The notes under the pieces were generated by a model, which worked only from the letters and a program-made list of their open reading frames with translations, did no database searches and was not told where the DNA came from. A stretch of DNA of 64,000 bases from Comamonadaceae bacterium. GTDB lineage: Bacteria > Pseudomonadota > Gammaproteobacteria > Burkholderiales > Burkholderiaceae_C. Shown one piece after another: positions 10,136 to 47,285 of this stretch. A program made the translations under genes and the position numbers. The stretch covers positions 1-64,000 of the forward strand of contig CANFWV010000007.1 in NCBI GenBank assembly GCA_947450695.1, written 5' to 3'. Every line of letters starts with the position of its first letter. Within the stretch, counting starts at the first letter, position 1.

Positions 10136-10136
10136 C

Positions 10137-10994: not shown

Positions 10995-11208
10995 ATCACT
11001 TTTGTCTTTCTTTCATCTTGAATTTCAGCCGCTCGCGCCTAACCTTAGGTCATGTCGTATCAACGCATTGTGAAGAAGCTTTCGCCAAGTTGACGACGAT
11101 ACCCTTCGCATGCACCGTATTAGTGTTTGCTCTCCTAATAAACAAGCTCAGCTACTGGTATATTGCACTGCAACATTATCAGCCGTCACACCAAAAAGGG
11201 GCTACGCC

Positions 11209-12618: not shown

Positions 12619-12632
12619 TCAGTTTTAACTTT

Positions 12633-13286
12633 GTGAGTTTGTCCCAACACATCAACGCTTTGCTACCGCAGACCCAGTGCACGCGCTGCGGCTACCCAGA
12701 CTGCGCCGCGTATGCACAGGCCATCGCCGCCAGCGAAGCTGCCATCAATAGATGCCCTCCCGGGGGCGATGAAGGCATTCATCGTTTGGCGGTTCTGACC
12801 GGCCAACCTGTGACGACGCTGGATCCCAACCATGGCCATGAAGGACCGCGCCATGTGGCGGTGATTGACGAAGCTTGGTGCATTGGCTGCACCTTGTGCC
12901 TGCCGGTCTGCCCGACAGACGCTATCCTCGGCAGCAACAAGCGCATGCACAGCGTGATTGAAAAACACTGCACCGGCTGCGAGTTGTGCATACCCGTCTG
13001 CCCAGTGGATTGCATCAGCTTGGTCAATGTGACAGCTCTGAAGACCGGATGGAAGGCTTGGTCGCCGACACAGGCTGAGGACGCCCGCAGTCGTTATGCA
13101 TTTCACCAGATCAAGCAACTACGGGAAACACGTGTCCAAGCCGATCGGCTGGAGAAAAAAGCAGAAGCAGTCTTGGCTGATGTGGCGGCCCATTCAAGGC
13201 ACACCGACAGCGCCGTGTTGGACTCCAAACGCACCGTGATTGAAGCGGCGCTGGCGCGGGCAAGAGCCCGCAGGCTGAACAACTAG
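12633..13286 (+). CDS. RnfB-like [4Fe-4S] ferredoxin, orphan electron-transport protein
   Basis: A 217-residue protein with an N-terminal Fe-S domain (C16, C19, C24, C41) and two CxxCxxCxxxCP ferredoxin motifs (C83/C86/C89/C93 and C113/C116/C119/C123). The C-terminal part is helical and basic. This matches RnfB without its N-terminal membrane helix. It starts at GTG 12633, 15 nt after phaZ. No rnfA/C/D/G/E genes are nearby, so it is probably a soluble electron carrier rather than part of an Rnf pump. Confidence 0.87.
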   Translation: MSLSQHINALLPQTQCTRCGYPDCAAYAQAIAASEAAINRCPPGGDEGIHRLAVLTGQPVTTLDPNHGHEGPRHVAVIDEAWCIGCTLCLPVCPTDAILGSNKRMHSVIEKHCTGCELCIPVCPVDCISLVNVTALKTGWKAWSPTQAEDARSRYAFHQIKQLRETRVQADRLEKKAEAVLADVAAHSRHTDSAVLDSKRTVIEAALARARARRLNN

Positions 13287-32204: not shown

Positions 32205-33314
32205 ATGTCCCTGCTCCCTTACGCTCTGGCCCGCCCTTTTTTGTTTAGCCTGGACGCGGAAACAGCCCACGACCTGACGATGGCCGCACTGGTGCGCACG
32301 CAGCACACGCCCTTCAACATGGCGTATGGCGCAAGCCGGATTGAAGATCCGGTTCAGGTCGCCGGGCTGACTTTTCCGAACCGCGTTGGCATGGCTGCAG
32401 GGCTGGACAAAAACGCCCGCTGCATTGACGGGTTAGCTGCCATGGGCTTTGGCTTTGTCGAAGTCGGCACCGTCACGCCCCAACCGCAGATTGGCAACCC
32501 GAAGCCACGCATATTTCGCTTGCCCGAGGCGAATGCACTGATCAATCGCCTGGGTTTGAACAACGACGGGCTGGATGCTTTTATCGACAACGTCAAGCAG
32601 GCTCGATTTCGCGAAGACAGCCGCAGACGCGGTCAAACGCCCATGTTGCTGGGTCTGAACATTGGTAAGAACGCCACCACTCCAATGGAAAACGCGACCG
32701 ATGACTACTTGGCCTGCTTGGATGGTGTCTACCCGCATGCTGACTACGTGACCATCAACATTTCCAGTCCCAACACCAAAAACCTGCGGACTCTGCAAGC
32801 CGACGAGGCGCTAGACGCCCTCCTAAGCGCCATGGCCCTGCGCCGTGAAGCACTGGCCGAAAAGCATGGTCGCCGCGTTCCATTTTTCGTCAAAATCGCA
32901 CCCGATCTGGACAACGCACAGATCGAGGTGATCGCGCGCACGATGCAGCGCTATGCACAAGCAGATGCCGCAGGCAGTCAACTCGGCTGGGGTCTGTTGG
33001 CCACCAACACCACCATCAACCGTGAAGCCGTGAAAGGCTTGGCGAATGCTAAAGAAGCTGGCGGCCTGTCAGGCACACCGGTGCTGGCAGCCAGCAACCA
33101 CGTGATACGGCAACTGCGTCAGTCTTTAGGCAAAGACTTTCCCATTATTGGTGTCGGTGGGATTTTGAGCGCTGAAGATGCCCTGAGCAAAATCCAAGCT
33201 GGTGCCGACGTCGTGCAGATCTACACCGGCCTGATTTACAAAGGACCAGAGCTTGTCAAGCAAGCTGCCGCGGCCATCCAAAAGTCTCAAACCGCTTCAA
33301 AAAGCACATCCTGA
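32205..33314 (+). CDS. pyrD: Dihydroorotate dehydrogenase (quinone), class 2
   Basis: A 369-residue membrane-associated FMN enzyme oxidising dihydroorotate to orotate in pyrimidine synthesis. The N-terminal helices ([23 protein letters not shown]), [26 protein letters not shown] with the class 2 catalytic serine, and the C-terminal FMN phosphate site [26 protein letters not shown] are visible. Its last 28 bp overlap, antisense, the end of the DUF3830 gene. It is the biosynthetic counterpart to the adjacent heterocycle-catabolic operon, and the two are probably unrelated in regulation. Confidence 0.94.
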
Positions 33315-33697
33315 GCACCCTCCCAAAGCACCTTGTTACCAAGTTGCCGGAGCTGCTCGCGGCCCTCCACGATGGTCAGGAAATGGTTACCCGCCAGCTG
33401 GCCCATCTTGCTAGAAAAACTGCAAGCACCGTAAGCCAAAATGATCTCGGTTTCGCTATAGCCGCCAGGGTAAAACAGCATGTCGCCGACTGACGGATGG
33501 CTGGTGTGATTCTCGAACCCCACGCCAAGCTGGAAATCTCCCAAAGGAACCCAGCAGCCTTCGCCACTCCAGCGCACATGAATCAGTTTTTGACGATACG
33601 GCAGAAGCTTGCTGAAAGCGGCCACGGTGAGTGGCGCGTCCGGATGTGTTTCGCCCAAAAAATGTAGTCCGCCAACGGTGATCTTGATCAATGACAT
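33287..33697 (-). CDS. DUF3830 / cyclophilin-like fold protein
   Basis: A 136-residue protein resembling the DUF3830 family of small cyclophilin-like beta barrels ([49 protein letters not shown]). Biochemical function is unknown. Members of this type are often found beside catabolic amidohydrolases and ABC importers, as here. It is the last gene of the ten-gene operon, 21 bp after the permease, and its 3' end overlaps pyrD on the other strand by 28 bp. Confidence 0.7.
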
Positions 33698-33718
33698 AAG
33701 ACTCTTTTAAAAAAGGGA

Positions 33719-34501
33719 TCAACCCATGCTCAAGTCAGTCTTGCGCTGAGCCCATCCGGTCATGCGGCCCTCGACCCAAGAAGACATGGCGTACAAAAAT
33801 ATCCCCATGATGGCCAGCAGCACCAAGCCGGCAAACACCAAGGGCACATCGAAATTACCGCTGGCAATCATCATCACCGTGCCAATGCCTTTGTTGGCCG
33901 CCACGGTTTCGCTCAGCACCGTGCCAACAAAAGACAGTGTGATGGCGATCTTCAGAGAGGCGAACAAGTAAGGCATCGCACGCGGCAAACTGACGTTCCA
34001 CAATATGTCGTGTTTGCGGGCACCCAGCACGCGCAGCACATCTTCCAGTTCAGGTTCGGTACTCGCCAGACCCGTGGCCACATTCACCACCACCGGGAAG
34101 ATGCAAATCACCATCGAGGTCAAAATGGCCGGCACCGTGCCCGAGCCAAACCAGACCACGAACAGCGGCACCACCGCTACTTTCGGAATACTCGAAAAAC
34201 CCACCAGCAACGGGTAGGCTACGTCGTAAGCCAGCCGAGAAGACCCAATCAGCACACCGACCAAAATGCCGATCATCACGCCCAAAGCAAAACCAGCCAG
34301 CGTGGTGTACAGCGTTTGAACCGTGTGCGGCCAAAGCAAGGGCATTTTGTCAATCAAGACCAGCGCGACCTGACTTGGCCGTGGCAAAACCAAATCAGAC
34401 ACACCGCTGACAAGACAAGCAATTTCCCAGAACAAAAAGAAACCCAACAGGGTGAAAGCTGACAACATGCGTTGCCGCGTTTGAGAAGACATGTTGTTCA
34501 T
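33719..34501 (-). CDS. ABC transporter permease (TauC/SsuC type)
   Basis: A 260-residue inner-membrane permease with about six hydrophobic helices. It carries the cytoplasmic EAA-like loop VLGARKHDILWNVSLPRAMPYLFASLKIAI that docks to the ATPase. The family imports taurine, alkanesulfonates, pyrimidine precursors (ThiX-like) and various heterocycles. Its ATG overlaps the TGA of the ATPase gene by four bases. Context with amidohydrolases implies a nitrogenous cyclic substrate. Confidence 0.88.
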   Translation of the reverse strand: MNNMSSQTRQRMLSAFTLLGFFLFWEIACLVSGVSDLVLPRPSQVALVLIDKMPLLWPHTVQTLYTTLAGFALGVMIGILVGVLIGSSRLAYDVAYPLLVGFSSIPKVAVVPLFVVWFGSGTVPAILTSMVICIFPVVVNVATGLASTEPELEDVLRVLGARKHDILWNVSLPRAMPYLFASLKIAITLSFVGTVLSETVAANKGIGTVMMIASGNFDVPLVFAGLVLLAIMGIFLYAMSSWVEGRMTGWAQRKTDLSMG

Positions 34502-35367
34502 GCCGGCACCGCCTGCGCTTGTGCTAAATCTAGGGCGTCACCATCTCGACGGGCCGCTGCAATAAGCATGCGCAATTGCTGTACCAAGCCGGCGAATTCA
34601 GCCGAATAGCTGCTCGCTAAAGTCCGAGGTCTGTCGAAAGGCACATCACGCACGTCAATGATGCGACCCGGTCGGGAGCTCATCACGCAGATTTTGTTGG
34701 CCAGGTAAGCCGATTCACGCAGGTCATGCGTGACCAGCAGCACGGTCGGTTTCTTGTCCATCCACAGCGACTGCATGATGTCCCACAACTCCTCGCGAGT
34801 GAATTGGTCCAGCGCGCCAAAAGGCTCGTCGAGCAGCAACAACTCCGGGTCATGAATCAGTGCCCTGCAGAGGGAGGCGCGCTGCAACATACCGCCAGAA
34901 AGTTGCCACGGACGTTTGTCACCAAAGCCGCGCAAACCCACCTGCGCCAACAGTGCCTCAACACGGTCGGTGTATTCGGCATGCCGCTTGCGCCGGAAGT
35001 CTTGCCGAAAGGGTTGAACAATCTTCAGCGGGATCATCACGTTGTCGCGAATCGTCAACCAAGGCAGCATGGTTGGATTCTGAAACGCCAGACCCACACG
35101 CAAGCGCGGTGCCTCTGACGCATTGCTATCGCCCTTCCCCCGGGAAGCCACCGCACCGACCTCACGCCCGTTCGCGATGACCGCACCTGAACTCGGTTTG
35201 AGCAGCCCGGCCACCAGTTTAAGGATGGTGGATTTTCCGCAACCACTGGGACCGACCAAAGCGACGAAGTCACCCTTGTCGATGCCCAGTGACGTGTGGT
35301 CCAGCGCCACCGTGCCACCGCCGTAGCGCAGTGTCACGTCGGACAGTTGAATGAACGAATTTGTCAT
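34498..35367 (-). CDS. ABC transporter ATP-binding protein (TauB/SsuB type)
   Basis: A 289-residue ATPase. Walker A GPSGCGKS is at 39-46, the Q loop is FQNPTMLPWLT, the signature is LSGGMLQRA (Met instead of the usual Gln), Walker B is LLLLDEPFGALDQ and the H loop is VTHDLRESAYLA. A segment of about 15 polar residues (ASRGKGDSNASEAP) is inserted before the Q loop. ATG 35367 is preferred over GTG 35379. It is coupled to the permease. Confidence 0.9.
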   Translation of the reverse strand: MTNSFIQLSDVTLRYGGGTVALDHTSLGIDKGDFVALVGPSGCGKSTILKLVAGLLKPSSGAVIANGREVGAVASRGKGDSNASEAPRLRVGLAFQNPTMLPWLTIRDNVMIPLKIVQPFRQDFRRKRHAEYTDRVEALLAQVGLRGFGDKRPWQLSGGMLQRASLCRALIHDPELLLLDEPFGALDQFTREELWDIMQSLWMDKKPTVLLVTHDLRESAYLANKICVMSSRPGRIIDVRDVPFDRPRTLASSYSAEFAGLVQQLRMLIAAARRDGDALDLAQAQAVPA

Positions 35368-35398
35368 GACGTCTTTCACTTGATTTCAAATGCAACCG

Positions 35399-36544
35399 CT
35401 AGAGCGCGGCGCGGCTGGACATACGGACGATCGCGGCCAAGGGCCCGCCACCGGCCGGGCCTTGGTGCTCAGCACCCCCAGAAACGTAGAGTGCGCCTTG
35501 CCCCACCACAGACGCCAAGACGGCCCCGACCGCGGCGCGTGCGTGGCGCGTGGAATGAATGTCGGAGTCGTTGAGCATGGTGTGGCGCACACCTCGCACC
35601 AAGGCGTTGGGGCTGGCCTCGGCTTTAGCCAACAGGTTCACCACCCGCGCCGATACCTCGGCTTGATCCCGTTCAGGGTCCAAGCCAAAAACGTCCTTCA
35701 ACAGCTTGCGCACACTGGCCGCATCAATGGCATCCGTCATGACGGTGTGGGCAATGCGCAGCGTTGAAGCACTGCCAACCGCCTCGCCTAGCACGATCAC
35801 GACATTGCCTTCGAGCTCAATGCCTGCCGACACTGAAGCCCGCTCAGAATAAAGTGTCCAGTCGCTCAAGACCACCGCGTCATTCACTTGCGCGGGTGTC
35901 AGTTCATTCAGTGCCAGCGCCACGCCAAGGGCTGAAGCACCGCGTGAATAGCCCATCGATTCGTAGCTGTCGTGCGTCACCGGTGTGCATCCGCGTGCCA
36001 GCGCATCAGCTGTTTTGGCGGCTGTCAACAGTGGACATTTGACTTGCACAAAATGCACATCCGCAGCGTCTGAAATGCCCGCATCGCGCATCGCTGCCAG
36101 CGTGGCGTCCTGCGTGGCTTTGATCTGTGCGGAGCGCCCCATTTCTTCAGACAGGAAGTCGCGCGTATGGGCAATCCCCAGAACCAAACGCTTTTCAGTA
36201 AAGCCTTGTCCGGCAGCAGCGGGAATCCAGCGGCGGGTGAAAACCGTGAAATGCGGCGACAAAACGCCTTCAGTTCCACCCGACATCACCAAGGCCACAC
36301 GCCCATGAACCTGCGCAGGCGTGCAACCCAAGGCAGGCGCCAGCAAATGACACCAGGCGCTGCTGGCGTATTCGCGTGTGAAGTCGTTCACACACCCATT
36401 GCCCTCGGTCTTACCCATCACCGCCACAACCTCGGCAGGCAGCAACTCGCCAGAATCGATCAGCGCTTGCATGCCCGACAAATCTCCGGGGCCACGGCAA
36501 GGGATGCGCCAGACCTCGACCTGTTGACACGGAGGTTGGGTCAT
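35399..36544 (-). CDS. Ring-opening amidohydrolase (cyanuric acid hydrolase / barbiturase family)
   Basis: A 381-residue member of the AtzD/TrzD/barbiturase family, which hydrolyses cyanuric acid or barbiturate rings and has a unique fold of three concatenated domains. The three Lys-Ser dyads can be read: K45 (MGKTEGNGCVNDFTR) with S88 (MSGGTEG), K169 (QVKCPLLT) with S239 (SVSAGIELEG), and K307 with S356 (YVSGGAEHQGPAGGGP). The motif MGYSRGASALGVALAL is also present. Specificity (cyanuric acid, barbiturate or another ring) is not decided by what I can see. Its ATG overlaps the stop of the next upstream gene by four bases. Confidence 0.9.
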   Translation of the reverse strand: MTQPPCQQVEVWRIPCRGPGDLSGMQALIDSGELLPAEVVAVMGKTEGNGCVNDFTREYASSAWCHLLAPALGCTPAQVHGRVALVMSGGTEGVLSPHFTVFTRRWIPAAAGQGFTEKRLVLGIAHTRDFLSEEMGRSAQIKATQDATLAAMRDAGISDAADVHFVQVKCPLLTAAKTADALARGCTPVTHDSYESMGYSRGASALGVALALNELTPAQVNDAVVLSDWTLYSERASVSAGIELEGNVVIVLGEAVGSASTLRIAHTVMTDAIDAASVRKLLKDVFGLDPERDQAEVSARVVNLLAKAEASPNALVRGVRHTMLNDSDIHSTRHARAAVGAVLASVVGQGALYVSGGAEHQGPAGGGPLAAIVRMSSRAAL

Positions 36545-38040
36545 ACGTCAACTTTCGGACGGCGCAAGGCCGCCATGACTTCATCCGACGGTAACGCGTT
36601 CATAGGCACACCGGCCGGTGTCTGCAAGATCGCGCTGGTGTAGTGCTCGGTGTTGCGCGGCTTCGGGGTTGGCATTTTTTGCACGCTCTTGACGGAGCGC
36701 CCCCAACCGGCGGATTCAGCCACGAGCTTGCAGTGTTGCATGACAAAACGCCCACGCACCAGCGTGTGCACTGGATAACCCTGCACGGCACGACCATTCC
36801 ATGGCGAAATCTTGCTGATACTTTGCAGGCGATTTTGCGAAAGCACGCCTGCGAGGGCCATGTCGACGATGGCAATGTCAGCATGCGCACCCGGCGCGAT
36901 GACGCCCTTGGTGCCGAAAAGTCCCCAGGCTTTGGCCGGTGCAACCGAGCTCCACCGGACGTAGTCCATCAAGGTTGCGCGGGCTTTGTTGACTTCCGTC
37001 AACATCAGCGGCATCTGGGTTTCGACACCCGGGAAACCGCAATCACAATCCCAAATACTCTCGCGAGTTTTTTCATCCGGCGAGTGCGGCGCGTGATCGG
37101 TCGCGATCATGTCGATGGTGCCGTCCATCAAGGCATCCCACAACGGCTGGTTGTGGCGCGCTTCACGGATAGGCGGATTGAGCCGCATGATGCCGCCCAG
37201 CGTGCGCATGTGGTCTGTGTTGAGCAGCAAATATTGCGGGCAAGTTTCAGCTGTGACATCGACACCCCTGCGCTTGGCTTCACGCAGCAAGTAAAGCGAG
37301 TCAGCCGCGCTGTGGTGCGCAATGTGGACACGTGCACCAGTCCATTCGGCCAACGTCAGCACGCGACCAATGGCTTCGATTTCCGCCACCGCTGGACGGG
37401 CAGCCAAGTGCGCAAAGGCATCGATGCGTCCTGCGGCTTGCATGTGTTGCTGACGTCGCGACAAGATGGAGGAGTTCTCAGCATGCACCACAGTCCGGAT
37501 ACCCAGGGGTGCTAATTTTTCAAAACCTTCCAGCAGCGCGCCGTCACTGGGCGCTGGCAAATTGCCAAAGGTGTTGCCCACAAAAGCCTTGAAGCTGGTG
37601 ACCCCTGCATCCAGCAAATCTTCAAGCCGGTCCACTGAATCGTCGCCCAAAAGGCCATGAATGCCGAAATCAACATACGAAGATTCAGCGGCTTTTTGTT
37701 TGATGCGCAAGGCCTCGACGGTACCAGTCGAAGGATTCGTGTTCGGCATTTCGAACACGGTCGTGACGCCGCCGCAGGCCGCTGCGGCAGAGCCGGTCTT
37801 CCAGGTTTCTTTGTTCGGATAACCCGGGTCCCGAAAATGAACGTGGCTGTCAATCGCACCGGGCAGCAGGTACAGTCCGTCGGCCCGCATCTCTTGGCGC
37901 GCAGGCGGCATCACATCGTCATGACCCACCGCCACAATGAGTTCGCCAGCGATAGCAACTGAGGCTTCGATGATCTGGTCGCCCGACACCACGCGTGCGC
38001 CGCGAATCACCAAATCGACTTCTTTCATAGCGCGGCTCAT
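36541..38040 (-). CDS. Dihydroorotase/allantoinase-like amidohydrolase
   Basis: A 499-residue metal-dependent cyclic amidohydrolase. The binuclear-site residues are complete: H66 and H68 (DSHVHFRDPG), carboxylated-lysine candidate K151 (TSFKAFVG), H186 (VVHAENSS), H242 (VHIAHHSAAD) and D315 (ATDHAPHSPDEK). It could open hydantoin, allantoin, dihydropyrimidine or a related ring. The C-terminus runs about 50 residues past the usual end of the domain. Its ATG at 38040 shares a base with the SDR stop codon (TGATG). A biosynthetic pyrC role is unlikely given the context. Confidence 0.85.
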   Translation of the reverse strand: MSRAMKEVDLVIRGARVVSGDQIIEASVAIAGELIVAVGHDDVMPPARQEMRADGLYLLPGAIDSHVHFRDPGYPNKETWKTGSAAAACGGVTTVFEMPNTNPSTGTVEALRIKQKAAESSYVDFGIHGLLGDDSVDRLEDLLDAGVTSFKAFVGNTFGNLPAPSDGALLEGFEKLAPLGIRTVVHAENSSILSRRQQHMQAAGRIDAFAHLAARPAVAEIEAIGRVLTLAEWTGARVHIAHHSAADSLYLLREAKRRGVDVTAETCPQYLLLNTDHMRTLGGIMRLNPPIREARHNQPLWDALMDGTIDMIATDHAPHSPDEKTRESIWDCDCGFPGVETQMPLMLTEVNKARATLMDYVRWSSVAPAKAWGLFGTKGVIAPGAHADIAIVDMALAGVLSQNRLQSISKISPWNGRAVQGYPVHTLVRGRFVMQHCKLVAESAGWGRSVKSVQKMPTPKPRNTEHYTSAILQTPAGVPMNALPSDEVMAALRRPKVDV

Positions 38041-38831
38041 CACAGCATTGCCCAACCGCCGTCCACCGGCAAGTCCACACCGGTGATCTGGCGCGACACG
38101 TCACTGGCCAAAAACAAGCAAGCGTTGGCGATGTCGTTGTCGGTTGAAACACGCCGCAGTGCGTAGTCCGCAGCGTGCCGCGTCATGGCTTCATCCAGCG
38201 AAATGCCCAACTTGTCGGCCATGTTGGCGCAGACCTTCTCACGAAAGCGCGGACCATCGACCATGCCGGGCGCCACGCAATTGACATTGATCCCGTACGG
38301 GCCGGCTTCCAGCGCGAAGCTTTTGGTGATGCCGCGCAGACCCCACTTGGAGGCCGAGTAGGCTGTACGACCGGCACGGCCCCGCATCCCAAACGTGCCG
38401 CCCACATTGACGACCTTACCGCTCTTACGCTCGACCATGCCCGGCAAAACAGCGTGCATGGTGTTGAAGCAGCCGGTCATGTTGAGCTCAACGATGTCGG
38501 AAAACTCAGCCGACGTGGTTTCCCAACCCGTCTTGCCGATCGGGCCTGAGCCACCGGCCACGTTGACGAGAATATCAATGCGACCGAAACGCTGAGTCGC
38601 GGCAACGGCGAGTGCCTCAGTCTGTTCAGCGTCGGTCATGTCACAAGGCACCACTAACACGTCGACACCCAGCGCACGGGCTTCGGCCGCAACGGGTTCG
38701 ATGGCCTCGATGTCCCGGCCAGCCAACACCAGCTTAGCGCCCTCTTGCGCGAAGGCCAGCGTCACCGCCCGGCCCATTCCCTTGGCTGGACCGGTGATCA
38801 CAGTCACCTTGTCTTTGAGTTGAAGGTTCAT
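38040..38831 (-). CDS. Short-chain dehydrogenase/reductase
   Basis: A 263-residue classical SDR. The cofactor motif is TGPAKGMG at 13-20, the NAG-like motif is VNVAGG, and the active-site Tyr and Lys are Y158 and K162 (YSASK). The position 13 residues before the tyrosine, normally the catalytic serine, is G145 in VNVGGTFG, with T146 next to it. D40 after the second strand favours NAD over NADP. It probably oxidises or reduces a ring or side-chain alcohol in the operon's pathway; the substrate is unknown. Confidence 0.85.
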   Translation of the reverse strand: MNLQLKDKVTVITGPAKGMGRAVTLAFAQEGAKLVLAGRDIEAIEPVAAEARALGVDVLVVPCDMTDAEQTEALAVAATQRFGRIDILVNVAGGSGPIGKTGWETTSAEFSDIVELNMTGCFNTMHAVLPGMVERKSGKVVNVGGTFGMRGRAGRTAYSASKWGLRGITKSFALEAGPYGINVNCVAPGMVDGPRFREKVCANMADKLGISLDEAMTRHAADYALRRVSTDNDIANACLFLASDVSRQITGVDLPVDGGWAML

Positions 38832-38852
38832 GGCAATAGTCTTTCAATCAAC

Positions 38853-39872
38853 TCAAAGTTTGGAAGGTCGCTCAGCACGCGCTGGCAAAAAGCTACGATT
38901 AAAAACTTCTTCCGGCAGCGGGGTACGGGCCAACTGGTTGGCCTCCACCACGACACCGATAGAGCGTTTCAGGCGCACAGAATCCACATCGCCCAAGCCA
39001 ATCTTGGCGATCTCGGGGTGGCTCATCTCTTCTTTCAGCGTGGCGATCAGGCGTTCTTTTTCAACTTCACGTTTGAGCAGTGGCTCGCGCTTCATCAGCG
39101 AGTCCATGGCCAGTTCTGGCGTGGCCACGGTGTCGACGATGGCACGATTCAGCGCCTTCAAGAAACCCTGCACGGCCTTCGGGTTGTCGCGCACGAAATT
39201 GCGTGAGAAAAGAATCGTGTTCGAGTACAGGTCAAGACCGAAATCACCGTAGTTGATGAAGCGCAAATCTTTCGCAGGATCAAGGCCTACCAACTTGGCG
39301 CTGAAGTAAATCGTGTTGATGTAGCCGAACACGCCATCAACCTGGCCGCGAATCAGCATTTGCTCGCGCAGGTTGGGGGCCATGTTGCTAATGGCGATCT
39401 TGCTGGCATCCAGCTTGGCGGCCTTGGCAAATGCCGGGAATAGCTTAAGTGCGCCGTCATTGGCCGGACCGCCGATGGTTTTACCTTCGAAGTCTTTGGG
39501 CGTGCGGATCGGACTGTCCTTTTTAACTGCAATGGTGAAAGGCGGCGTGTTGTACAGCATGTAGACGCCCACAGGTGCCTCAGTCGGCCGCTTAGCGGCG
39601 AAGTCAATCAGCGCATTGATGTCACCAAAACCAGCGTCGTAAGCGCCACTGGCCACCTTGGCGATGGGGGCAGACGAGCCCTCGCCTTGGTCAATTTCAA
39701 CGTCAAGACCTTCTGCTTTGAAATAGCCTTTGTCTTGAGCTACAAAAAACCAGGCTTGTGGCCCTTGGTACTTCCAGTTCAGCACCAACTTGATCTTGGT
39801 CTGCGCAAACGATGCAGCGGGCAAGAGCGCAGCGCACAGGCTGAGCACGGCAATACGGCGATTAAATTTCAT
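38853..39872 (-). CDS. ABC transporter substrate-binding protein 1 (NMT1/TauA-like)
   Basis: A 339-residue periplasmic receptor starting MKFNRRIAVLSLCAALLPAASFA with a clear signal peptide. The mature protein begins TKIKLVLNWKYQGPQAWFFVAQDKGYF, typical of receptors for thiamine-pyrimidine-like and heterocyclic compounds. ATG 39872 is used; the upstream extension overlaps the deaminase-like gene. It is clearly paralogous to the receptor at 41189-42235. One of them must serve the single permease/ATPase pair. Confidence 0.88.
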   Translation of the reverse strand: MKFNRRIAVLSLCAALLPAASFAQTKIKLVLNWKYQGPQAWFFVAQDKGYFKAEGLDVEIDQGEGSSAPIAKVASGAYDAGFGDINALIDFAAKRPTEAPVGVYMLYNTPPFTIAVKKDSPIRTPKDFEGKTIGGPANDGALKLFPAFAKAAKLDASKIAISNMAPNLREQMLIRGQVDGVFGYINTIYFSAKLVGLDPAKDLRFINYGDFGLDLYSNTILFSRNFVRDNPKAVQGFLKALNRAIVDTVATPELAMDSLMKREPLLKREVEKERLIATLKEEMSHPEIAKIGLGDVDSVRLKRSIGVVVEANQLARTPLPEEVFNRSFLPARAERPSKL

Positions 39873-39888
39873 GTGAATTCCTGTGGGG

Positions 39889-41178
39889 TTAGATATTGAT
39901 TGGGGTAATAAATGATTGCGAAGGAAACAACGGAGGGGGAAACTTTGAAGGGGCAACCGGCAACGGCCCCGAAACCTGAGCGCCACTTTTGACAACGGCG
40001 AGCTTGGCGGCCTGCAACAAAACAGCTTCGGGCGCAGAACGGGCATCCAGCACCACCAGATCGGCCGCACAACCGGCTGACAAACCATGGTTTGCGAGGC
40101 GCAACATGCGTGCGGAGTTGGTGGTCATGGTTTGCCACATTTTTTCAAGCCCGGCGTTGTGCAACTGGTGGGTGATTTGCGCCAACAACAACATAGCCTT
40201 GAGCGGATCCGCATCTCCAAATCGAACAAATGGATCGCGCATGTTGTCCGTGCCGCAGGACACGTTGACACCCGCCTCCATCAGCTCTAGCACCCGCGTC
40301 AGTCGCATGCGCGTTGGCAAAACACAAACTTGGACATCAGCTTTTTTAAGCAGATCGATGGTGTTGGCAGCCACGGCATCGTTCACATGCGCCAGCGATG
40401 CGATATGCGAGACAGCCACACGCCCTTGCCAACCCTGCGCCATGGTTTTCTGCGCCACATAAGGCAAGGTGAACGCGTCAGCGCTGTCCCAGTTGTCCAA
40501 GTGATAGTCGATGTCGCAACCGTGCTTTGCCGCCAGCGCAAAGGTTTCGTCAACTTGGCGCTCGGGGTCTGAAGGCCAGAGACGTGCATTGATGTTGCCG
40601 CCGACGATGCGCAGACCGCCTTCAATCGCTTGGGCAACATACGAGCCGGCACCATCTTCAATGGACCCTGCGGTTTCAAACCAACCTTCTTGAGGAAAAG
40701 CGATGACCTGCAAATCGACTAGACCGGCGAGTGCCCGCGCTGCCGCCTGCACCCCTTGAACGCCACGTTGTCCGATGAAACGATCAGCCTCGCAATGGGT
40801 GCGCGCTGTGGTGGTGCCGTGGGCCAGTCCCATTTCAAGTCCACGCCGCGCCCGTCTCGTGACATCTTCAACGGTGAAGTCCGACTTGAGTTGCCTGACC
40901 GTACGAATGGCCGCGTTGAGGTCGACCGCAGCCACAGCATCGGCCGTGCGGTCGCCGGTCAAGGCCTTGTCGAGATGCACATGCGGGTCGACAAACCCGG
41001 GGGAGACCAAGCGGCCCTGTGCATTCCAGACGGCTTGAAGGTCACACGCGGCGTCAAAGTCAGCATCGACACTGACGTCCGTGATGAGACCGGCCGCTAT
41101 CGAGATAGACCACCGGCCTTCCCGGCCAGGCAAGACTGCGTTGCGGATGGCCCAGTTGGTGTTCATGCCAGGGGTCAC
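39889..41178 (-). CDS. Cytosine-deaminase-like amidohydrolase
   Basis: A 429-residue amidohydrolase of the CodA/AtzC type. Metal and substrate residues seen are H66 and H68 (DPHVHLDKA), Q163 (FPQEGW), H226 (HLDN), H258 (VSHIAS) and D311 (GTDNMRDPF). The glutamate of the CodA motif HCDE, a proton shuttle, is replaced by N229. Expected chemistry is hydrolytic removal of an amino or alkylamino group from a nitrogen ring, but the substitution leaves this open. GTG 41178 has AAGG eight bases upstream, overlapping the previous stop; ATG 41166 is the alternative. Confidence 0.85.
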   Translation of the reverse strand: MTPGMNTNWAIRNAVLPGREGRWSISIAAGLITDVSVDADFDAACDLQAVWNAQGRLVSPGFVDPHVHLDKALTGDRTADAVAAVDLNAAIRTVRQLKSDFTVEDVTRRARRGLEMGLAHGTTTARTHCEADRFIGQRGVQGVQAAARALAGLVDLQVIAFPQEGWFETAGSIEDGAGSYVAQAIEGGLRIVGGNINARLWPSDPERQVDETFALAAKHGCDIDYHLDNWDSADAFTLPYVAQKTMAQGWQGRVAVSHIASLAHVNDAVAANTIDLLKKADVQVCVLPTRMRLTRVLELMEAGVNVSCGTDNMRDPFVRFGDADPLKAMLLLAQITHQLHNAGLEKMWQTMTTNSARMLRLANHGLSAGCAADLVVLDARSAPEAVLLQAAKLAVVKSGAQVSGPLPVAPSKFPPPLFPSQSFITPINI

Positions 41179-41188
41179 GCTCTGCGCC

Positions 41189-42235
41189 TTAGTAAGCCGA
41201 CTTCACCAAGCGCTCTGCCTTTGGCGGCAAAAAGCTGCGGTCAAACACTTCAGCAGGTGTCGGTGTGCGTGCCAGTTCGTAGCTGTCAACAATCTGCGTG
41301 ATGGCCCGCGACATGCGCACGTCCTTGACATCGCCGAGGCCAATCTCTGCCGCTTCAGGTGTCAGGATGCTACTTTTTAGGACGTAAACAAGCCGGCGCT
41401 TTTCGATGTCTTTGTTGATCAACGGCTCGTTCTTGGCCAAGTTGTCGATGCAAGGATCTGGGTTAGCAGCGCATTCCTTCAAGGCTCGGTTGACGGCACG
41501 GACCATGCCCGCCACCGCCTTTGGTTTTTCTTTCAGCAGCTTAGAAGACACCAAGACCCCATTGCTGTACAGGTCGAGTCCGCTGTCGTTGTAGAACATC
41601 CAGTGGATGTCTTTGTCAGGGTCAACACCCAGCGCCACCAAATTCATGTAACTGGTAGCAGAAAAAACCGCCGAAGCATCGACTTGTCCTCGCAACAGCA
41701 TCTGCTCCTGAAGATTCGGCGCCATGTTGGTCCAGGTCACTTTTTTCTCATCAATGCCGTTCTTTTTAGCCAGGGCGGCGAACACTTTGAAGGCCGCTCC
41801 GCCGGCAGGTGAGCCCAGCGTCTTGCCTTCAACATCTTTGAAAGACTTGATCGAACTGCCGGCCTTGGTGATGAGTGCAAAAGGGGCACGGTTGTAGATC
41901 ATGTAGACCATCACCGGGGCGTCGCCGGGGCGCGTCGAGGCGCCCTGAATGATGGCGTTCATGTCACCCACACCGGCTTGGTAAGTGCCCGACATGACGC
42001 GCGACACAGCCGCCGCAGAACCTTCGCCTTGGTCGATGGTCACGTCCAGGTTTTCGGCCTTGAAGTAGCCCTTGTCCTGAGCCCAGTAAAACCAGGCATG
42101 AACGCCCTGAATTTTCCAGTCCAACGTGAACTTGATCTTGGTTGGCTCTTGCGCGCAAGCAGGCAGCACGCAGGCCAGCGCAACAGCGCCGATGCCGAGA
42201 TGAATGCCGATGGAACGCCAGTTGGGTAATTTCAT
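41189..42235 (-). CDS. ABC transporter substrate-binding protein 2 (NMT1/TauA-like)
   Basis: A 348-residue periplasmic receptor with a signal peptide ending near ACVLPACA. The mature start TKIKFTLDWKIQGVHAWFYWAQDKGYF and the segments NMAPNLQEQMLLRGQVD and SGLDLYSN align along the whole length with the receptor at 38853-39872. The identity is roughly half by eye, so this is a duplication followed by divergence. It starts one base after the stop of the RutB-like gene. Confidence 0.88.
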   Translation of the reverse strand: MKLPNWRSIGIHLGIGAVALACVLPACAQEPTKIKFTLDWKIQGVHAWFYWAQDKGYFKAENLDVTIDQGEGSAAAVSRVMSGTYQAGVGDMNAIIQGASTRPGDAPVMVYMIYNRAPFALITKAGSSIKSFKDVEGKTLGSPAGGAAFKVFAALAKKNGIDEKKVTWTNMAPNLQEQMLLRGQVDASAVFSATSYMNLVALGVDPDKDIHWMFYNDSGLDLYSNGVLVSSKLLKEKPKAVAGMVRAVNRALKECAANPDPCIDNLAKNEPLINKDIEKRRLVYVLKSSILTPEAAEIGLGDVKDVRMSRAITQIVDSYELARTPTPAEVFDRSFLPPKAERLVKSAY

Positions 42236-42236
42236 G

Positions 42237-43094
42237 TCACGACTTTCTAAGTGGGGTTGGAGTGCGGGATTGGCTTGGTTTTGGTGGCTTGCTGCTCGCC
42301 TTTAAAGCGGGCAACAATGCAGCGGTCGTGGCGACAAAACCGTGTAATTGCTGAACGATGAAATGGATTGCCTTGCTCACATAAGCCGGTGATGGGGTGC
42401 TGCAGGCATCAGCCAACAGCACGCAGTCGTAACCTAAAAAGCCAGCGTCTTGCAGCGTGGAGAACACGCAGCGGTCGGTATTCACGCCGGCGAACAGCAA
42501 GGTGGTGATACCTTGTTGCCGCAAGATGCTGTCCAGCTCGTTGTCCCAAAAGCCGCTCAGTCGGTGCTTGAAAACAGTGATGTCTGTAGGCTCGGCACTC
42601 AGCTCATCAATCACTTGTGCACCCCACTCGCCCGCGACCACGGACAAGCCACGGTCGTCTGGTGAAGCTTCGGCATAGCCAACGCCGTCCACGCTGCGCT
42701 TGCCTTTGAACTGAACTGTCGGACTGAGGTTGAGCCTGTCTGGCCGCACACCCCAGTTCAGCCAGACCACCGCACCGCCTGCCGCACGCCAAGCAGGCAG
42801 TAGGCCGGCGATGGTGGCGATCGGCTTGCGCATGGGTTTGACGCTGATCCCTTTTTGTCCAAACCAGCCTTTGGGATGGCAGAAATCGTTTTGCATGTCG
42901 ATCACCACCAGCGCGCTGCGAGCGAGGTCAATCTCAATGCGCTGTGGCAACGCATCGAATTGCACCGCAACAGTGCGGCGCGCTAGACGCACCAGACTCA
43001 CGCCTGTATCGCTCAGCGTCCAGGCATTGTGAGGCGTAGGGCCAAACAAAGTGGATTCCAAATTGGTGCGTGAGTGACGGGCAGAAGGTTTCAT
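42237..43094 (-). CDS. RutB-like cysteine hydrolase (isochorismatase superfamily)
   Basis: A 285-residue hydrolase starting at ATG 43094. The catalytic triad is D66 (VVIDMQNDF), K176 (FKHRLSGFWDNELDSIL) and C209 (GVNTDRCVFSTL). The blocks around the Lys and Cys resemble ureidoacrylate amidohydrolase RutB and, more broadly, biuret hydrolase, enzymes that cleave ureido or biuret products after ring opening. It is the first gene of the operon. The N-terminus has about 55 residues before the core domain, and the C-terminus ends in a Pro/Ser-rich tail. Confidence 0.85.
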   Translation of the reverse strand: MKPSARHSRTNLESTLFGPTPHNAWTLSDTGVSLVRLARRTVAVQFDALPQRIEIDLARSALVVIDMQNDFCHPKGWFGQKGISVKPMRKPIATIAGLLPAWRAAGGAVVWLNWGVRPDRLNLSPTVQFKGKRSVDGVGYAEASPDDRGLSVVAGEWGAQVIDELSAEPTDITVFKHRLSGFWDNELDSILRQQGITTLLFAGVNTDRCVFSTLQDAGFLGYDCVLLADACSTPSPAYVSKAIHFIVQQLHGFVATTAALLPALKASSKPPKPSQSRTPTPLRKS

Positions 43095-43105
43095 GCCTAT
43101 AACTA

Positions 43106-43209
43106 CGCATGAGCCATGCCGAGACAGCGGTCTTATATATGCTTTTTTAAGCACCAACTGCTGCCGTAACGGCAACGCTCATGGCATGGGCCGTGGCATG
43201 GCTCGTGCG
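43106..43209. repeat. Inverted repeat flanking the divergent promoter region
   Basis: GAGCCATGCC at 43111-43120 is exactly complementary to GGCATGGCTC at 43195-43204, and the match extends with one mismatch into the outer CGCA/TGCG. A third partial copy (ATGGCATGGG) is at 43181-43190. The arms lie on either side of the T-N11-A box, so they may be additional regulator sites. Confidence 0.6.
43162..43174. promoter_or_regulatory. LysR-type T-N11-A operator
   Basis: TGCCGTAACGGCA is a perfect dyad (TGCCG-TAA-CGGCA) that also fits the T-N11-A box of LysR regulators. Its centre is about 75 bp from both divergent start codons (43094 and 43244), the usual recognition-site position. The AT-rich stretch at 43135-43149 between it and the catabolic operon could hold that operon's -10 region. 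Confidence 0.65.
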
Positions 43210-43243
43210 TTGCTCTGCCAAACCCGCCACAACTTGAACCCCT

Positions 43244-44170
43244 ATGAACCATCTTCGCTTTCTGAAGTACCTTGACGAAGTCGCCCGCACAGGCTCGATC
43301 AGACAGGCCGCCGAACACTTGCACATTGCACCCTCTGCGGTCAACCGCCGTATCCAAGATCTGGAGGAGGAACTTGGCACGCCTCTTTTTGAGCGCCTGC
43401 CACGCGGGGTTCGACTGAACGCCGCAGGCGAGCTGTTTGTGGCCTACATTCGCAGCCGTTCCGCACACCTTGACCAAGTGCGCTCAGAAATTGAAGATTT
43501 ACAAGGGCTGCGCCGCGGCAGTGTCAAACTTGTCGCCAGTCAGGCGTTGGCGCCAGCCTTCTTACCCAAGGTCATCGCCAGCTTCCGCGGCCATCATCCG
43601 CTGGTGGCAGTGCAAGCGCACATCGGGGACCACTTGCAAGCCGTGCAGGCCCTGCGCGACTTTGAAATGGATTTAGCGTTGGTGTTCAATCTCGCACCAG
43701 AACCAGATATTGAGCGCATCGCGGAGTTTGAGCAAAAACTGGTGGCAACCCTGCACCGCGACCACCCTTTGGCGCAACAACCTGAATTGAGAATTCGTGA
43801 CTGCATCGACTACCCACTGGTGCTGCCTGAACAAGACATCGGCGGCAGGCAACTACTCGATCACTATCTGGCGCGCAGCTCCATCAAATTAAGGCCTGTC
43901 GTTGAAAGCAACAGTTTTGAGTTCATGCGAGGTTATCTCTATCACGAACAAGCCATCACGTTTCAGATCGCCATTGGGGCAGTGACAGACGGCGGAGCGC
44001 TGGTTGCGCGAGAAATTTCTGACAGAGGTTTTCCCAAAGGTCAACTGGTGCTGGCCAGTTTGCGCAACCGACAGTTGCCGGTGATAGCGCATGCATTCGT
44101 AGAACACGTGCGCGCAGCCCTGAGGGCCGAAGGCTCGGCAAGCCTCAATCCGGCACGAACTTTAGCCTGA
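43244..44170 (+). CDS. LysR-family regulator of the heterocycle operon
   Basis: A 308-residue LysR regulator. The N-terminal HTH (FLKYLDEVARTGSIRQAAEHLHIAPSAVNRRIQDLEEELGTPLFER) is followed by a periplasmic-binding-like effector domain (GSVKLVASQALAPAFLPKVIASF onward). It is divergent from the ten-gene operon with 149 bp between starts and a T-N11-A box in the middle, so it very probably activates that operon in response to a pathway compound. Its 3' end overlaps the next gene by 26 bp. Confidence 0.9.
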   Translation: MNHLRFLKYLDEVARTGSIRQAAEHLHIAPSAVNRRIQDLEEELGTPLFERLPRGVRLNAAGELFVAYIRSRSAHLDQVRSEIEDLQGLRRGSVKLVASQALAPAFLPKVIASFRGHHPLVAVQAHIGDHLQAVQALRDFEMDLALVFNLAPEPDIERIAEFEQKLVATLHRDHPLAQQPELRIRDCIDYPLVLPEQDIGGRQLLDHYLARSSIKLRPVVESNSFEFMRGYLYHEQAITFQIAIGAVTDGGALVAREISDRGFPKGQLVLASLRNRQLPVIAHAFVEHVRAALRAEGSASLNPARTLA

Positions 44171-44402
44171 ACTTGACCTCATCTTCTGGCAGTTCCAGCG
44201 TGACCAGTTGGCCCATCTTGTTGTCCTTCAGGCGGCAGGCAGCAAACAAACTGAATTTGCCTTTGAGATAGTAGCTCTCCATGTCGATCAGCATGTACGG
44301 ATACGGCACAAAAACTTCGTGTTCAAAAATCAAACGGTGCAGGTTGCGCGGCGACGGGAAGAGTTTGTAGTCGTCGGTGGTGATGCTTTGTGCGGTGGCC
44401 AT
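44145..44402 (-). CDS. Conserved small protein of unknown function
   Basis: An 85-residue protein, MATAQSITTDDYKLFPSPRNLHRLIFEHEVFVPYPYMLIDMESYYL onward, with alternating charged and aromatic residues suggesting a small beta-rich fold. I do not recognise a domain. Coding is supported by a clean ATG, a compact frame and normal codon usage. It converges on the LysR gene with a 26-bp 3' overlap; no operon partner is seen. Confidence 0.6.
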   Translation of the reverse strand: MATAQSITTDDYKLFPSPRNLHRLIFEHEVFVPYPYMLIDMESYYLKGKFSLFAACRLKDNKMGQLVTLELPEDEVKFRLKFVPD

Positions 44403-44541
44403 GCGGGTTGTGATCCGTGAAATCTGTCGTGAAGGTCGGCGCTGAAATGCAGCGCGCTGTAAGCTAGGCGCTTATTTTCGCTCAAGCCCCGATACCGTCT
44501 TTTCTACTTTTAAAAACTAGCGATCCAAGTCGCCCTGCCCC

Positions 44542-45141
44542 ATGAACGAACGCCTCGCCACGCCAGACAAGGAAGCCATCGCCCTGCTTGATCCCTTCAC
44601 CGGTTTGGGCCTGCACCAGATCCAGTTGGTGAGCACTGCCGCACACGCGCAGCAAGCCCTTGAAGCGCTGGCGAGTGCCCGCGTGCTCGGCTTCGACACC
44701 GAATCAAAACCGACTTTCGAGCGCTATGAAGTGTCGGACGGACCGCACATCGTGCAATTGGCCACGGTCGACCAAGGCTATATTTTTCAGTTGACTGACC
44801 CTGGCTGCCGCCAAGCGCTGGCGCAGTTGTTAGAGTCACCGAGTATCACCAAGGCCGGCTTTGGTCTGGGGGATGACCGCCGCCGCATCGTCAGCAAACT
44901 CGGCGTTGACCTGCAAGGGGTGCTCGACCTCAACATGGTTTTCAACCAACGCGGCTACCGCAAAGACATGGGCGTGCGTGGGGCTGTGGCGCTTATGTTC
45001 AACCAGCGTTTTTTGAAGTCGCGCAAAGCCACCACATCGAACTGGTCCAAGCCCGAGTTGTCTTCATCGCAACTGAGCTATGCCGCCAATGACGCCTATG
45101 CGGCGCTACGGGTTTATGTGGCGCTCGGCTTGTGCGATTGA
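44542..45141 (+). CDS. DEDDy 3'-5' exonuclease domain protein (RNase D-like)
   Basis: A 199-residue protein that is almost only the exonuclease domain. Catalytic residues are D52 and E54 (GFDTESKP), D111 or D112 ([10 protein letters not shown]), and Y180 with D184 ([11 protein letters not shown]), which puts it in the DEDDy class with RNase D and WRN. It lacks the HRDC domains of full RNase D, so an RNA- or DNA-trimming role in a partner complex is possible. Its end overlaps the convergent flavoprotein gene by 28 bp. Confidence 0.85.
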
Positions 45142-46238
45142 ACGGCGGCCATCGCGGCCACGTAAGCCCCCAGCGCCAGTGCGCTGGTCAGGCCCGGGGA
45201 TTCAATGCCGAACAGGTTGATCAAACCTTGGATGCCGTGCTCAGACTGGCCCTGAATGAGGAAGTCACGCGCAGCTTCTTCTGGGCCTTGAATTTTGGGC
45301 CGAATGCCGGCGTAGCCCGCTGTCAGCGCGCCATCTTGCAGACCCGGCCAGTACTTGCGAACCTCGGCATAAAAAGCCTCGCCACGCGCGGCGTCCACCA
45401 CCAAGTCGTCGGGCGAATTGACCCACTCAACGTCCGGACCGAACTTGGCCTGACCGCCCAAATCAAGCGTCAAGTGAACCCCCAGACCGGCGGCTTCGGG
45501 CACCGGATATATCAAACGCTCAAAGGGTGAGCGACCAGCCAGCGTGAAGTAATTGCCCTTGGCGTAATAGCTGGGCGGCACATGGGCGGCATCCAGGCCG
45601 GTGAAATGCCGTGCCAGCGACTGCGCATACAGGCCAGCCGCATTGATGAGCAGAGAGGTTTGCAATTCGGTACCGTCTTGCGTCACGACGGTGATGAGAT
45701 CGGCACCGCAATTGGCCGAGGCCACCCGCGAATTCAGCGCCACCAAACCGCCCGCGTTTTCCAAGTCACCCTGCAAGGCCAGCATGAAGGCGTGGCTGTC
45801 AACAATGCCGGTGCTGGGCGACAACACGGCCGCGACGCAATCAAGTTGCGGCTCCAGTGCCTGCGCTTCTTCGCGTGTCAGCAACACCAAGTCCAGCACG
45901 CCATTGGAGGCGGCTTTGGCGATGATAGCTTGCAGCTGCGGCACTTGCGCCGTGTGCGTTGCCACGATCAGTTTGCCGCAGCGACTGTGCCCGATGCCGC
46001 GCTCAGCAGCGTAAGCGTAGAGCTGGTTTTTACCGTCCACACACAGACGCGCTTTGAGCGATCCCTGCGGGTAATAGATACCGGCGTGAATCACCTCGCT
46101 GTTGCGCGAACTGGTGCCGGTGCCAATCGCATTCTCAGCTTCAAGCAACCAGACCTCGCGGCCGTGCAAAGCCAGCGCGCGGGCCACAGCCAAGCCGACC
46201 ACACCCGCACCAATCACCACGGCATCGACCTGTTCCAT
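45114..46238 (-). CDS. FAD-dependent oxidoreductase, L-2-hydroxyglutarate oxidase (LhgO)-like
   Basis: A 374-residue flavoprotein of the DAO superfamily. The FAD-binding motif [16 protein letters not shown] is at the N-terminus, followed by [19 protein letters not shown], which is characteristic of the LhgO/L2HGDH group, and the C-terminal [12 protein letters not shown]-like segment ([14 protein letters not shown]). It probably oxidises L-2-hydroxyglutarate or a similar 2-hydroxy acid. ATG 46238 is preferred over the GTG one codon before. It lies 30 bp after the formylglutamate hydrolase and may be cotranscribed with it. Confidence 0.85.
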
Positions 46239-46268
46239 CACTGTCCTTGTTCTACTTGACTGCCACGC

Positions 46269-47117
46269 TCAAAGCTGACGCGGATCGGTATTGCGCAGCA
46301 CGTCCACCAACGAACGCAAGTGAGCCTTGAGTGGCGCGTAACCAGCATTCAGCTCGAAGGTTTTCTCGTCCATGTAGAGCTTGCGGTTGACTTCAACCTG
46401 AACGCTGTGGCGGTCTTGCTCAGGCGCGCCAAAGCGACGCACCAGCTCCACACCTTTGTAGGGATGGTTCAACGAGACTTGGTAACCGAGGCTGGTGAGG
46501 TGGTCGTGCACAAGCTGCGCCAGCGCTGGGCTGCACGTCGTGTGATCGCGGTTGCCGATCACAAAATCGGCATGCGCTTCGCCCGGAAATTCGGTCGCAT
46601 GACTGGACGCAATCGCCGGCATGGAGTGGCAATTAACGTGGATGCTGTAGCCGTGTTGAGCATGGGCCGCCTCAATCGCCTCAGCCACCGCCGCGTAATA
46701 AGGCTGCCAGCATTTCACAATGCGCGCCTGCACTTCGACGACCGATAGTTTCCGATCGTAAAGTGGGACGCCGTCGTCGGTGGTGCGCCAAATCAAACCC
46801 TTGCCGAGCCTGACTTTCGAGAGGATTTTCGGATCAGTCGCGACGGGGTGAGGCCACGGCGCATCGAGCAAACTTACATCGATCTCAGTCGTGTCTCGGT
46901 TTGCATCCAGGTAGCTGCGCGGAAACATCGCTTCAACCCAGTGCACACCGAGTCCGGAGGCGAAGTCATAGAGCTTGTCCACATGCGTATCTTCGGCGCT
47001 GCGCAGCGCCTGCAAGGTGCAGGCATACGCAAAATCAGCCGGATAGTCCGTGCCACTGTGGGGCGAGTCCAGCACCAGCGGGCCGCTGCCTGGAAGATAA
47101 CGAATGTAGGAAGTCAT
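46269..47117 (-). CDS. N-formylglutamate amidohydrolase-like enzyme
   Basis: A 282-residue HutG/FGase-family zinc hydrolase. PLVLDSPHSGTDYP, DTHVDKLYDF, FPRSYLDANRDTTEIDVSLL, HVNCHSMPA and QVEVNRKLYMDE are family blocks with the metal-binding His and Asp residues. It would release formate and glutamate from N-formylglutamate, but no other hut genes are in the window, so the substrate is inferred. The start is ATG 47117 (MTSYIRYLPGSGP). With the downstream LhgO-like gene it suggests a glutamate/hydroxyglutarate link. Confidence 0.82.
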   Translation of the reverse strand: MTSYIRYLPGSGPLVLDSPHSGTDYPADFAYACTLQALRSAEDTHVDKLYDFASGLGVHWVEAMFPRSYLDANRDTTEIDVSLLDAPWPHPVATDPKILSKVRLGKGLIWRTTDDGVPLYDRKLSVVEVQARIVKCWQPYYAAVAEAIEAAHAQHGYSIHVNCHSMPAIASSHATEFPGEAHADFVIGNRDHTTCSPALAQLVHDHLTSLGYQVSLNHPYKGVELVRRFGAPEQDRHSVQVEVNRKLYMDEKTFELNAGYAPLKAHLRSLVDVLRNTDPRQL

Positions 47118-47285
47118 CTGGCTATTGTGGCCTGTGAGTGAGCCCATCAACAACAAAAGAAAAGCAGATGAGGACGTTTGTCCTACAAGCCATCTCCCCT
47201 GCGGCCGACACTTCCAATCACGGATCTTAAAGACAATCCAACATCAGTTGTTTTCTTAAACGTTCTTTTCATTGAAGGAGTTACT

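Follow-up and report, generated by a model that had tools for sequence, protein, structure and literature searches.

A ten-gene operon of a Comamonadaceae bacterium combines a predicted cyanuric acid hydrolase with a recurring, uncharacterised dihydroorotase-like core

We analyzed a window of 64,000 nucleotides (positions 1 to 64,000 of contig CANFWV010000007.1, assembly GCA_947450695.1) from a Comamonadaceae bacterium, and specifically the eleven genes found at 33287-44170. Ten of them are packed on the minus strand, in the 5' to 3' order of a RutB-like cysteine hydrolase, a first substrate-binding protein (SBP1), a CodA/AtzC-like amidohydrolase (CodA-like), a second substrate-binding protein (SBP2), an SDR-family enzyme (SDR), a dihydroorotase/allantoinase-type cyclic amidohydrolase (DHO), AtzD, the ATPase and the permease of an ABC transporter and a DUF3830 protein. 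The eleventh is a LysR-family regulator on the plus strand (Table 1). From DUF3830 upwards the joints are a gap of 21 bp, an overlap of 4, a gap of 19, an overlap of 4, an overlap of at most 16 and then, toward the RutB-like gene, gaps of 21, 16, 10 and 1 bp. The start of the RutB-like gene (likely the ATG at 43094) was picked by comparison with relatives in an open reading frame (ORF) that reaches 43175. With the starts chosen, everything that the original prediction, an earlier reading of the letters alone, had said of the layout was borne out (ten minus-strand genes, joints of 25 bp or less, a divergent LysR gene), and Pfam and NCBIfam agreed with the gene families it had named. A scan of 32900-44600 gave one promoter-like site against 3.4 expected in shuffled sequence, and 14 terminator-like sites against 14.4. 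The operon is real; its enzyme families are ordinary, their combination is unusual and the core is uncharacterised. The open-licence literature searched held no description of it in titles or abstract starts.

Table 1. Genes of the operon and its divergent regulator, with positions in the window.
Gene	Positions	Strand	Basis or remark
LysR-family regulator	43244-44170	+	divergent from operon
RutB/BiuH-superfamily cysteine hydrolase (RutB-like; isochorismatase fold)	42237-43094	-	PF00857
SBP1, NMT1-type substrate-binding protein	41189-42235	-	PF09084
CodA/AtzC-like amidohydrolase	39889-41178	-	closest solved 2qt3/4cqb; AtzC-type active-site residues
SBP2, NMT1-type substrate-binding protein	38853-39872	-	PF09084; likely start 39872
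SDR-family dehydrogenase/reductase	38040-38831	-	PF13561/PF00106
DHO, dihydroorotase/allantoinase-type cyclic amidohydrolase	36541-38055	-	TIGR00857, TIGR03178
AtzD, cyanuric acid hydrolase by sequence	35399-36544	-	NF052395, dyads and Arg, tree
ABC transporter ATPase	34498-35379	-	PF00005
ABC transporter permease	33719-34501	-	PF00528
DUF3830 protein, distant relative of solved 3kop	33287-33697	-	PF12903

AtzD scored 519.5 bits against the NCBIfam equivalog for cyanuric acid amidohydrolase (NF052395, cutoff 360). Its seven solved relatives were headed by five cyanuric acid hydrolases; lower came a barbiturase and an unnamed ring-opening amidohydrolase. It retains every residue of the three Ser-Lys dyads and all three substrate-binding Arg, at positions identical to those of AtzD from Pseudomonas ADP, whose spacings are the same as those reported for the Azorhizobium enzyme. 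The signature of 11 AtzD positions was present in 91 of the 110 rows aligned, or in 83 of the 102 distinct sequences. In barbiturase, a Gln replaces the domain-B Arg equivalent to Arg188 of cyanuric acid hydrolase (PMC4051656; papers are cited here from excerpts), and the window AtzD has Arg. In a tree of 96 rows, 89 of them different, it falls within a clade of 52 rows with support 100/99. Nested in the same clade are the AtzDs of locus L060 and its twin L003/L139, beside AtzF, AtzH and BiuH-type genes, and that of L061, beside AtzF, AtzE and AtzH. By the starred branches, the DHO-operon label must have been gained or lost three times or more, since L082 and L093/L111 sit apart from the main clade, and the three changes may be one gain and two losses. 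The link of AtzD with DHO appears in several parts of the tree (the main Burkholderiales clade, L082, and L093 with L111). Several forks of the main clade stay open, which leaves its branching order unsure. Our analysis indicates that the window AtzD is very probably a cyanuric acid hydrolase. The family call made originally, AtzD or barbiturase, resolves toward the former by profile, residues and tree, with cyanuric acid hydrolases outranking barbiturase among the solved relatives. A barbiturase reading is disfavoured by the Arg/Gln position and by the tree.

Genome contigs were scanned for AtzD, and from the 163 loci obtained the best 80, not a random sample, were kept. Counts were made by tblastn at identity thresholds that we chose; a codon-position gene caller, which missed genes, served for candidate finding only, and one based on ORF length was dropped, as in high-GC loci it favoured antisense shadow ORFs. 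DHO was found in 45 of the 80 loci, SDR, DHO and AtzD together in 42, and these three with SBP2, ATPase and permease in 40, referred to here as core loci. LysR homologues at 40% identity or more were present in 48 of the 80, and AtzD stood without DHO in 35, some of them short. The gene set thus recurs, and beyond chance. The 40 core loci contain a RutB-like gene in 37 cases, SBP1 in 35, DUF3830 in 32 and a LOG-family gene in 14; this last, nucleotide phosphoribohydrolase-like and recurrent with AtzD, might release a ring from a nucleotide. The deaminase is exchangeable between loci: six carry the CodA type, 27 a divergent TRZ/ATZ-type deaminase (c10), none both and seven neither, although two of these seven have a weaker c10-like gene (L055 and L059, 30%) and three are cut off near the operon (L039, L065, L068). 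Wherever a core locus showed SBP1 along with a deaminase of at least 50% identity, SBP1 lies directly upstream of that gene on the same strand (33 of 33).

Median identities to the window in the core loci were 84.9 for DHO, 82.7 for DUF3830 (n = 32), 82.5 for SDR, 81.9 for the permease, 77.8 for the ATPase and 74.2 for SBP2, against 71.6 for AtzD; lower still were CodA-like (70.3, n = 6), LysR (69.4, n = 39), RutB-like (65.1, n = 38) and SBP1 (63.0, n = 35). Among the enzymes of the set, conservation is highest in DHO and SDR, and from the higher identity of DHO, DUF3830 and SDR the core appears to be under tighter constraint than AtzD. The distribution of the set is patchy, spanning many Burkholderiales, including named Variovorax strains (e.g., L035 and L037), and a few Alphaproteobacteria; AtzD itself was detected (E 1e-20) in 22 of 300 genomes sampled from the order.

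The same core is found without AtzD. DHO orthologues are rare: at E 1e-130 or better, they were present in four of 398 genomes of the phylum and seven of 399 of the order (the window's own counted in both), and in none of the 11 other genomes listed for its family. Of these ten DHO genomes, five (the window's included) have an AtzD at 60% or more, two only a homologue at 45-46% and three none at E 1e-15, while AtzF (E 1e-60) is present in eight. G002 (L156) has the order RutB-SBP2-SDR-DHO-M20-ABC-PERM-SBP1-c10 (PERM, permease), in which an M20 amidohydrolase takes the place of AtzD. DHO-M20 was found in G180, SDR-DHO-c10 with a distant M20 (29%) in G620, SBP1-c10-SBP2-SDR-DHO-ABC-PERM-acetamidase/formamidase in G571, and two SDRs, DUF3830 and DHO on the 6 kb contig of G525. 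Skermanella has SBP2-SDR-DHO-ABC-PERM-SBP1-c10-AtzD-acetamidase/formamidase-DUF3830. M20 and AtzD are adjacent in L082 and L143, and therefore they are not simple substitutes. A core present without AtzD speaks against one compulsory path through cyanuric acid. The single linear path suggested originally is weakened accordingly, both by these genomes and by the 35 of 80 loci with AtzD and no DHO. The remark that DHO, SDR and DUF3830 fit no pathway still holds, and our data add that the three form a recurring set.

Other arrangements were seen around AtzD. In L054, from a Variovorax metagenome-assembled genome, RutB-like, AtzD and c10 stand in a row (9086-12762) beside BiuH-type genes, with no SDR, DHO or NMT1 transporter, and the Sulfuriferula loci L073/L146 have AtzD-c10-LOG beside AtzE-AtzH, without DHO. 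Seven Methylobacterium-type loci (L089, L090, L091, L096, L100, L102 and L106) have a different, hydantoinase-like gene, 29-32% identical to DHO, directly after AtzD; in L089, L090 and L096 a gene that reads by eye as carbamoylase-like lies opposite. Here AtzD has another cyclic amidohydrolase as its partner.

DHO passed the multi-type dihydroorotase profile (TIGR00857, 315.4 against 279.05) and lay half a bit above the cutoff for the allantoinase AllB (TIGR03178, 358.3 against 357.85); it failed a second allantoinase profile (NF004839, 370.5 against 631) and that for D-hydantoinase/dihydropyrimidinase (TIGR02033, 308.2 against 393.25). Over 70 aligned rows, 56 of them distinct, there is no variation at His71, Arg75, Asn105, Lys156, His191, His247, Asn293, Asp320, His321 or His324; one row departs at His73, and His248 varies. 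The metal ligands, the carboxylated-Lys position and the HFR (within HFRDPG) and MPNT motif residues are shared with dihydroorotases and AllB, and the DHAPH residues with multi-type dihydroorotases, whereas the setting of DHO is catabolic, an operon in which its neighbour is AtzD or M20. In dihydroorotases the Arg and Asn of the HFR and MPNT motifs bind the carboxylate of the substrate. Since both are kept, the substrate of DHO is probably a carboxylated cyclic ureide. The host has two further, distant DHO paralogues at E 1e-10.

The best solved relatives of the CodA-like protein are of the AtzC type (N-isopropylammelide aminohydrolase), with 2qt3 at the top (184.8 bits) and cytosine deaminases next (138.1). 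Matching columns through the alignment to solved relatives (AtzC numbering from PMC4577212), the Zn ligands His60, His62, His217 and Asp303, the catalytic His249 and also Gln160, Lys65 and Asn304 are kept in all seven CodA-like rows, whereas two residues of the pocket differ in all seven, with Asp in place of His219 and Phe in place of Trp309. The likeness to AtzC noted originally is therefore upheld by structure match and active site, and the protein may be an aminoheterocycle deaminase. For the RutB-like protein the outcome was different. It shares the isochorismatase-like fold and the Asp-Lys-Cys triad (34 of 34 rows) with BiuH, the triuret hydrolase TrtA and RutB, and a KxRxSGF stretch with RutB, but failed the profiles for BiuH (NF050097, 117.2 against 370) and RutB (TIGR03614, 134.1 against 377.95). 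The position of Lys145, which contacts biuret in BiuH (PMC5806882), is Leu in 33 rows and Phe in one, and position 215 is variable. With the triad kept and Lys145 replaced in all 34 rows, the RutB-like proteins form, as judged by sequence, a subfamily of their own. The original assignment as a biuret hydrolase is disfavoured, while another protein of the host scores above the BiuH cutoff.

The DUF3830 profile matched only 3kop among solved structures (E 5e-6), 43 columns are invariant in 25 sequences and no paper on the family was found in the open-licence literature. In L116, L118, L119 and L121, DUF3830 has dihydropyrimidinase for a neighbour, together with genes of an FAD oxidoreductase, the DapA family and an amino-acid ABC system, which is a separate catabolic context. 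The import system belongs to the broad Pfam families expected of the TauABC-like transporter first proposed, but it falls short of the NCBIfam cutoffs for TauC (84.6 against 342) and TauB (183.7 against 357) and for the SsuA family (70.4 and 62.1 against 163.5). As for the neighbours, 32205-33314 reads by eye as pyrD (dihydroorotate dehydrogenase), convergent with the operon and overlapping the end of DUF3830 by 28 bp; its adjoining an operon with a dihydroorotase-like gene is probably a coincidence. Translations on the other side read by eye as an FAD-dependent oxidoreductase-like protein (45114-46241) and an N-formylglutamate amidohydrolase-like protein (46269-47156).

The copy in the operon is the one AtzD found in the draft genome of the host. 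Contig C64 (L137) carries AtzG-AtzE-AtzH, a BMP-type transporter, a formamidase (8387-9517 of L137, inside the atzG-E-H/BiuH cluster; NF009803, 542 against 406), a BiuH (NF050097, 411.3 against 370) and a second BiuH-family protein below that cutoff (257.2), with no AtzD, and contig C72 carries AtzF (741.3 against 511.05). These genes would provide an outlet for the product of the window AtzD. In the relatives L139, L060 and L061, AtzD lies within or beside an atzG-E-H/BiuH-type cluster, and in L082 AtzG-E and AtzF diverge from a stretch that carries SDR-DHO-AtzD. Clusters of atzG-E-H with allophanate hydrolase have been described in Rhodoferax and Variovorax (PMC6219798). C64, with its BiuH and BiuH-family protein, resembles a triuret/biuret route through TrtA, BiuH and AtzF (PMC7948467); it differs by its atzG-E-H, formamidase and BMP-type transporter, and has no AtzD. 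Compared to the atzDGEHF operon of Pseudomonas sp. ADP (pADP-1, L110), the window AtzD is 61% identical, a divergent LysR is found in both and the window host also has AtzG-E-H and AtzF, whereas here AtzD is away from atzG-E-H-F, joined instead to SBP1-deaminase, SBP2, SDR, DHO, RutB-like and DUF3830, and the binding proteins are NMT1-type rather than BMP-type. The link to the lower s-triazine route drawn originally is supported, and the s-triazine reading as a whole partly so. Formamidase genes accompany L054, L060, L061, L109 and L139 as well; we know of no part that formamide would play in the breakdown of cyanuric acid.

We propose, with a probability of roughly 0.55, that this is a LysR-controlled import-and-degrade operon for nitrogen heterocycles composed of three joined units. 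The sequences establish the gene set, its conservation and modular make-up, the family and active site of AtzD and the presence of downstream genes in the host; the reactions, their order and the roles given to SDR, DHO, RutB-like and DUF3830 are inferred. SBP1 and the deaminase (AtzC-like here) would import and deaminate an amino-heterocycle. The second unit, the older core (SBP2, SDR, DHO, DUF3830 and the shared ATPase and permease), would take up and open a carboxylate-bearing cyclic ureide, with SDR altering its oxidation state and DHO hydrolysing the ring amide. The amide or ureido group so exposed would be stripped by the RutB-like cysteine hydrolase (in relatives by M20 amidohydrolase or acetamidase/formamidase). 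In the third unit AtzD would open cyanuric acid to carboxybiuret/biuret, to be taken to ammonia and CO2 by AtzG-E-H and BiuH on C64 and AtzF on C72. The first two units may deliver cyanuric acid or may act beside AtzD. Several observations weigh against this proposal. Three of the ten DHO genomes have the core without AtzD, two more have only the 45-46% homologues and in two of the ten AtzF was not found. Two Azospirillum plasmid loci have the Skermanella set but no AtzD within 25 kb, and the acetamidase/formamidase of these alphaproteobacterial variants was found, at 60% or more, in none of the 80 AtzD loci. Loci L032 and L044 have no deaminase in the stretch fetched, and the host genome is a draft, 92.7% complete. 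Besides, the carboxylate argument leans on the role that two residues have in dihydroorotases, and we know of no established activity for the SDR, DHO, RutB-like or DUF3830 proteins of this set.

A bolder reading, that the operon degrades oxonic (allantoxanic) acid, i.e., 5-azaorotate, and its amino analogues, yielding cyanuric acid for AtzD, is improbable. Oxonic acid and its amino analogues are s-triazines that can arise from oxidised urate or guanine. The orotate isostere would be recognised by DHO, a dihydroorotase-type enzyme that keeps the Arg and Asn for carboxylate binding, a change of oxidation state at the C=N or carbinolamine carbon would fall to SDR, and the decarboxylated azauracil would become cyanuric acid for AtzD and then biuret for the host route. 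No paper on allantoxanic acid was found in the open-licence literature. Oxidation of urate to triuret and cyanuric acid has been reported (PMC7948467).

One linear route to cyanuric acid from an amino- or hydro-s-triazine such as 5-azacytosine, in which CodA or c10 deaminates, SDR oxidises the hydrate, AtzD opens the resulting cyanuric acid and N-formylbiuret, a side product, is dealt with by DHO together with RutB-like or a formamidase, would account for the triazine-type deaminases beside AtzD (AtzC-like here, 2paj/AtzB-like in L082), the formamidase in the host Atz cluster and the acetamidase/formamidase genes of the alphaproteobacterial variants. We consider it unlikely, given the genomes with the core and no AtzD. 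In addition, 5-azacytosine is a rare compound, and no such bacterial route (oxonic acid or azauracil with cyanuric acid) appeared in open-licence titles and abstract starts. An AtzD shifted to another trioxo ring, barbiturate-like and derived from an oxidised purine or pyrimidine, in an operon devoted to derivatives of purines or pyrimidines alone, would suit the LOG-family gene of 14 core loci and the DHO, RutB-like and M20 families, which serve in pyrimidine and purine catabolism. It is improbable that this is so when all dyad and Arg positions are kept, including the one that is Gln in barbiturase (PMC4051656), and AtzDs of atzF/atzH operons are nested in the same clade.

The single pathway of the original prediction (deamination, opening by one amidohydrolase, trimming by the second and RutB-like as the biuret hydrolase) agrees with gene content and order and with the likeness to AtzC and AtzD, but it is very unlikely with the RutB-like protein below the BiuH cutoff and without Lys145, and a C64 protein above that cutoff. 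Pterin or folate catabolism, with a pterin deaminase and the core opening a reduced pteridine, is a weak and very unlikely rival. The deaminase of L082 is closest to 2paj, an isoxanthopterin deaminase, but the window CodA-like protein is closest to AtzC and we know of no dihydroorotase or AtzD step on pteridines. There is a precedent in Variovorax sp. F1, whose pterin deaminase acts on folate and pteroate, although the excerpt of that paper names only endoribonuclease genes next to it (PMC9513972). Two more candidates were considered and set aside: a creatinine route (deaminase, hydantoinase and N-carbamoylsarcosine hydrolase) would leave AtzD and SDR without a place, and an anaerobic purine route of the xanthine-amidohydrolase type would suit the formamidase but not AtzD or SDR.

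Finding the substrate of the SDR-DHO-DUF3830 core could show a natural source of cyanuric acid and reveal what role these enzymes had before herbicides and pool chemicals. It would also help to assign functions to this dihydroorotase-like subfamily, to the isochorismatase subfamily and to DUF3830. Should the oxonate reading be true, cyanuric acid hydrolases would have a natural function older than industry, that of clearing away oxidised purines.

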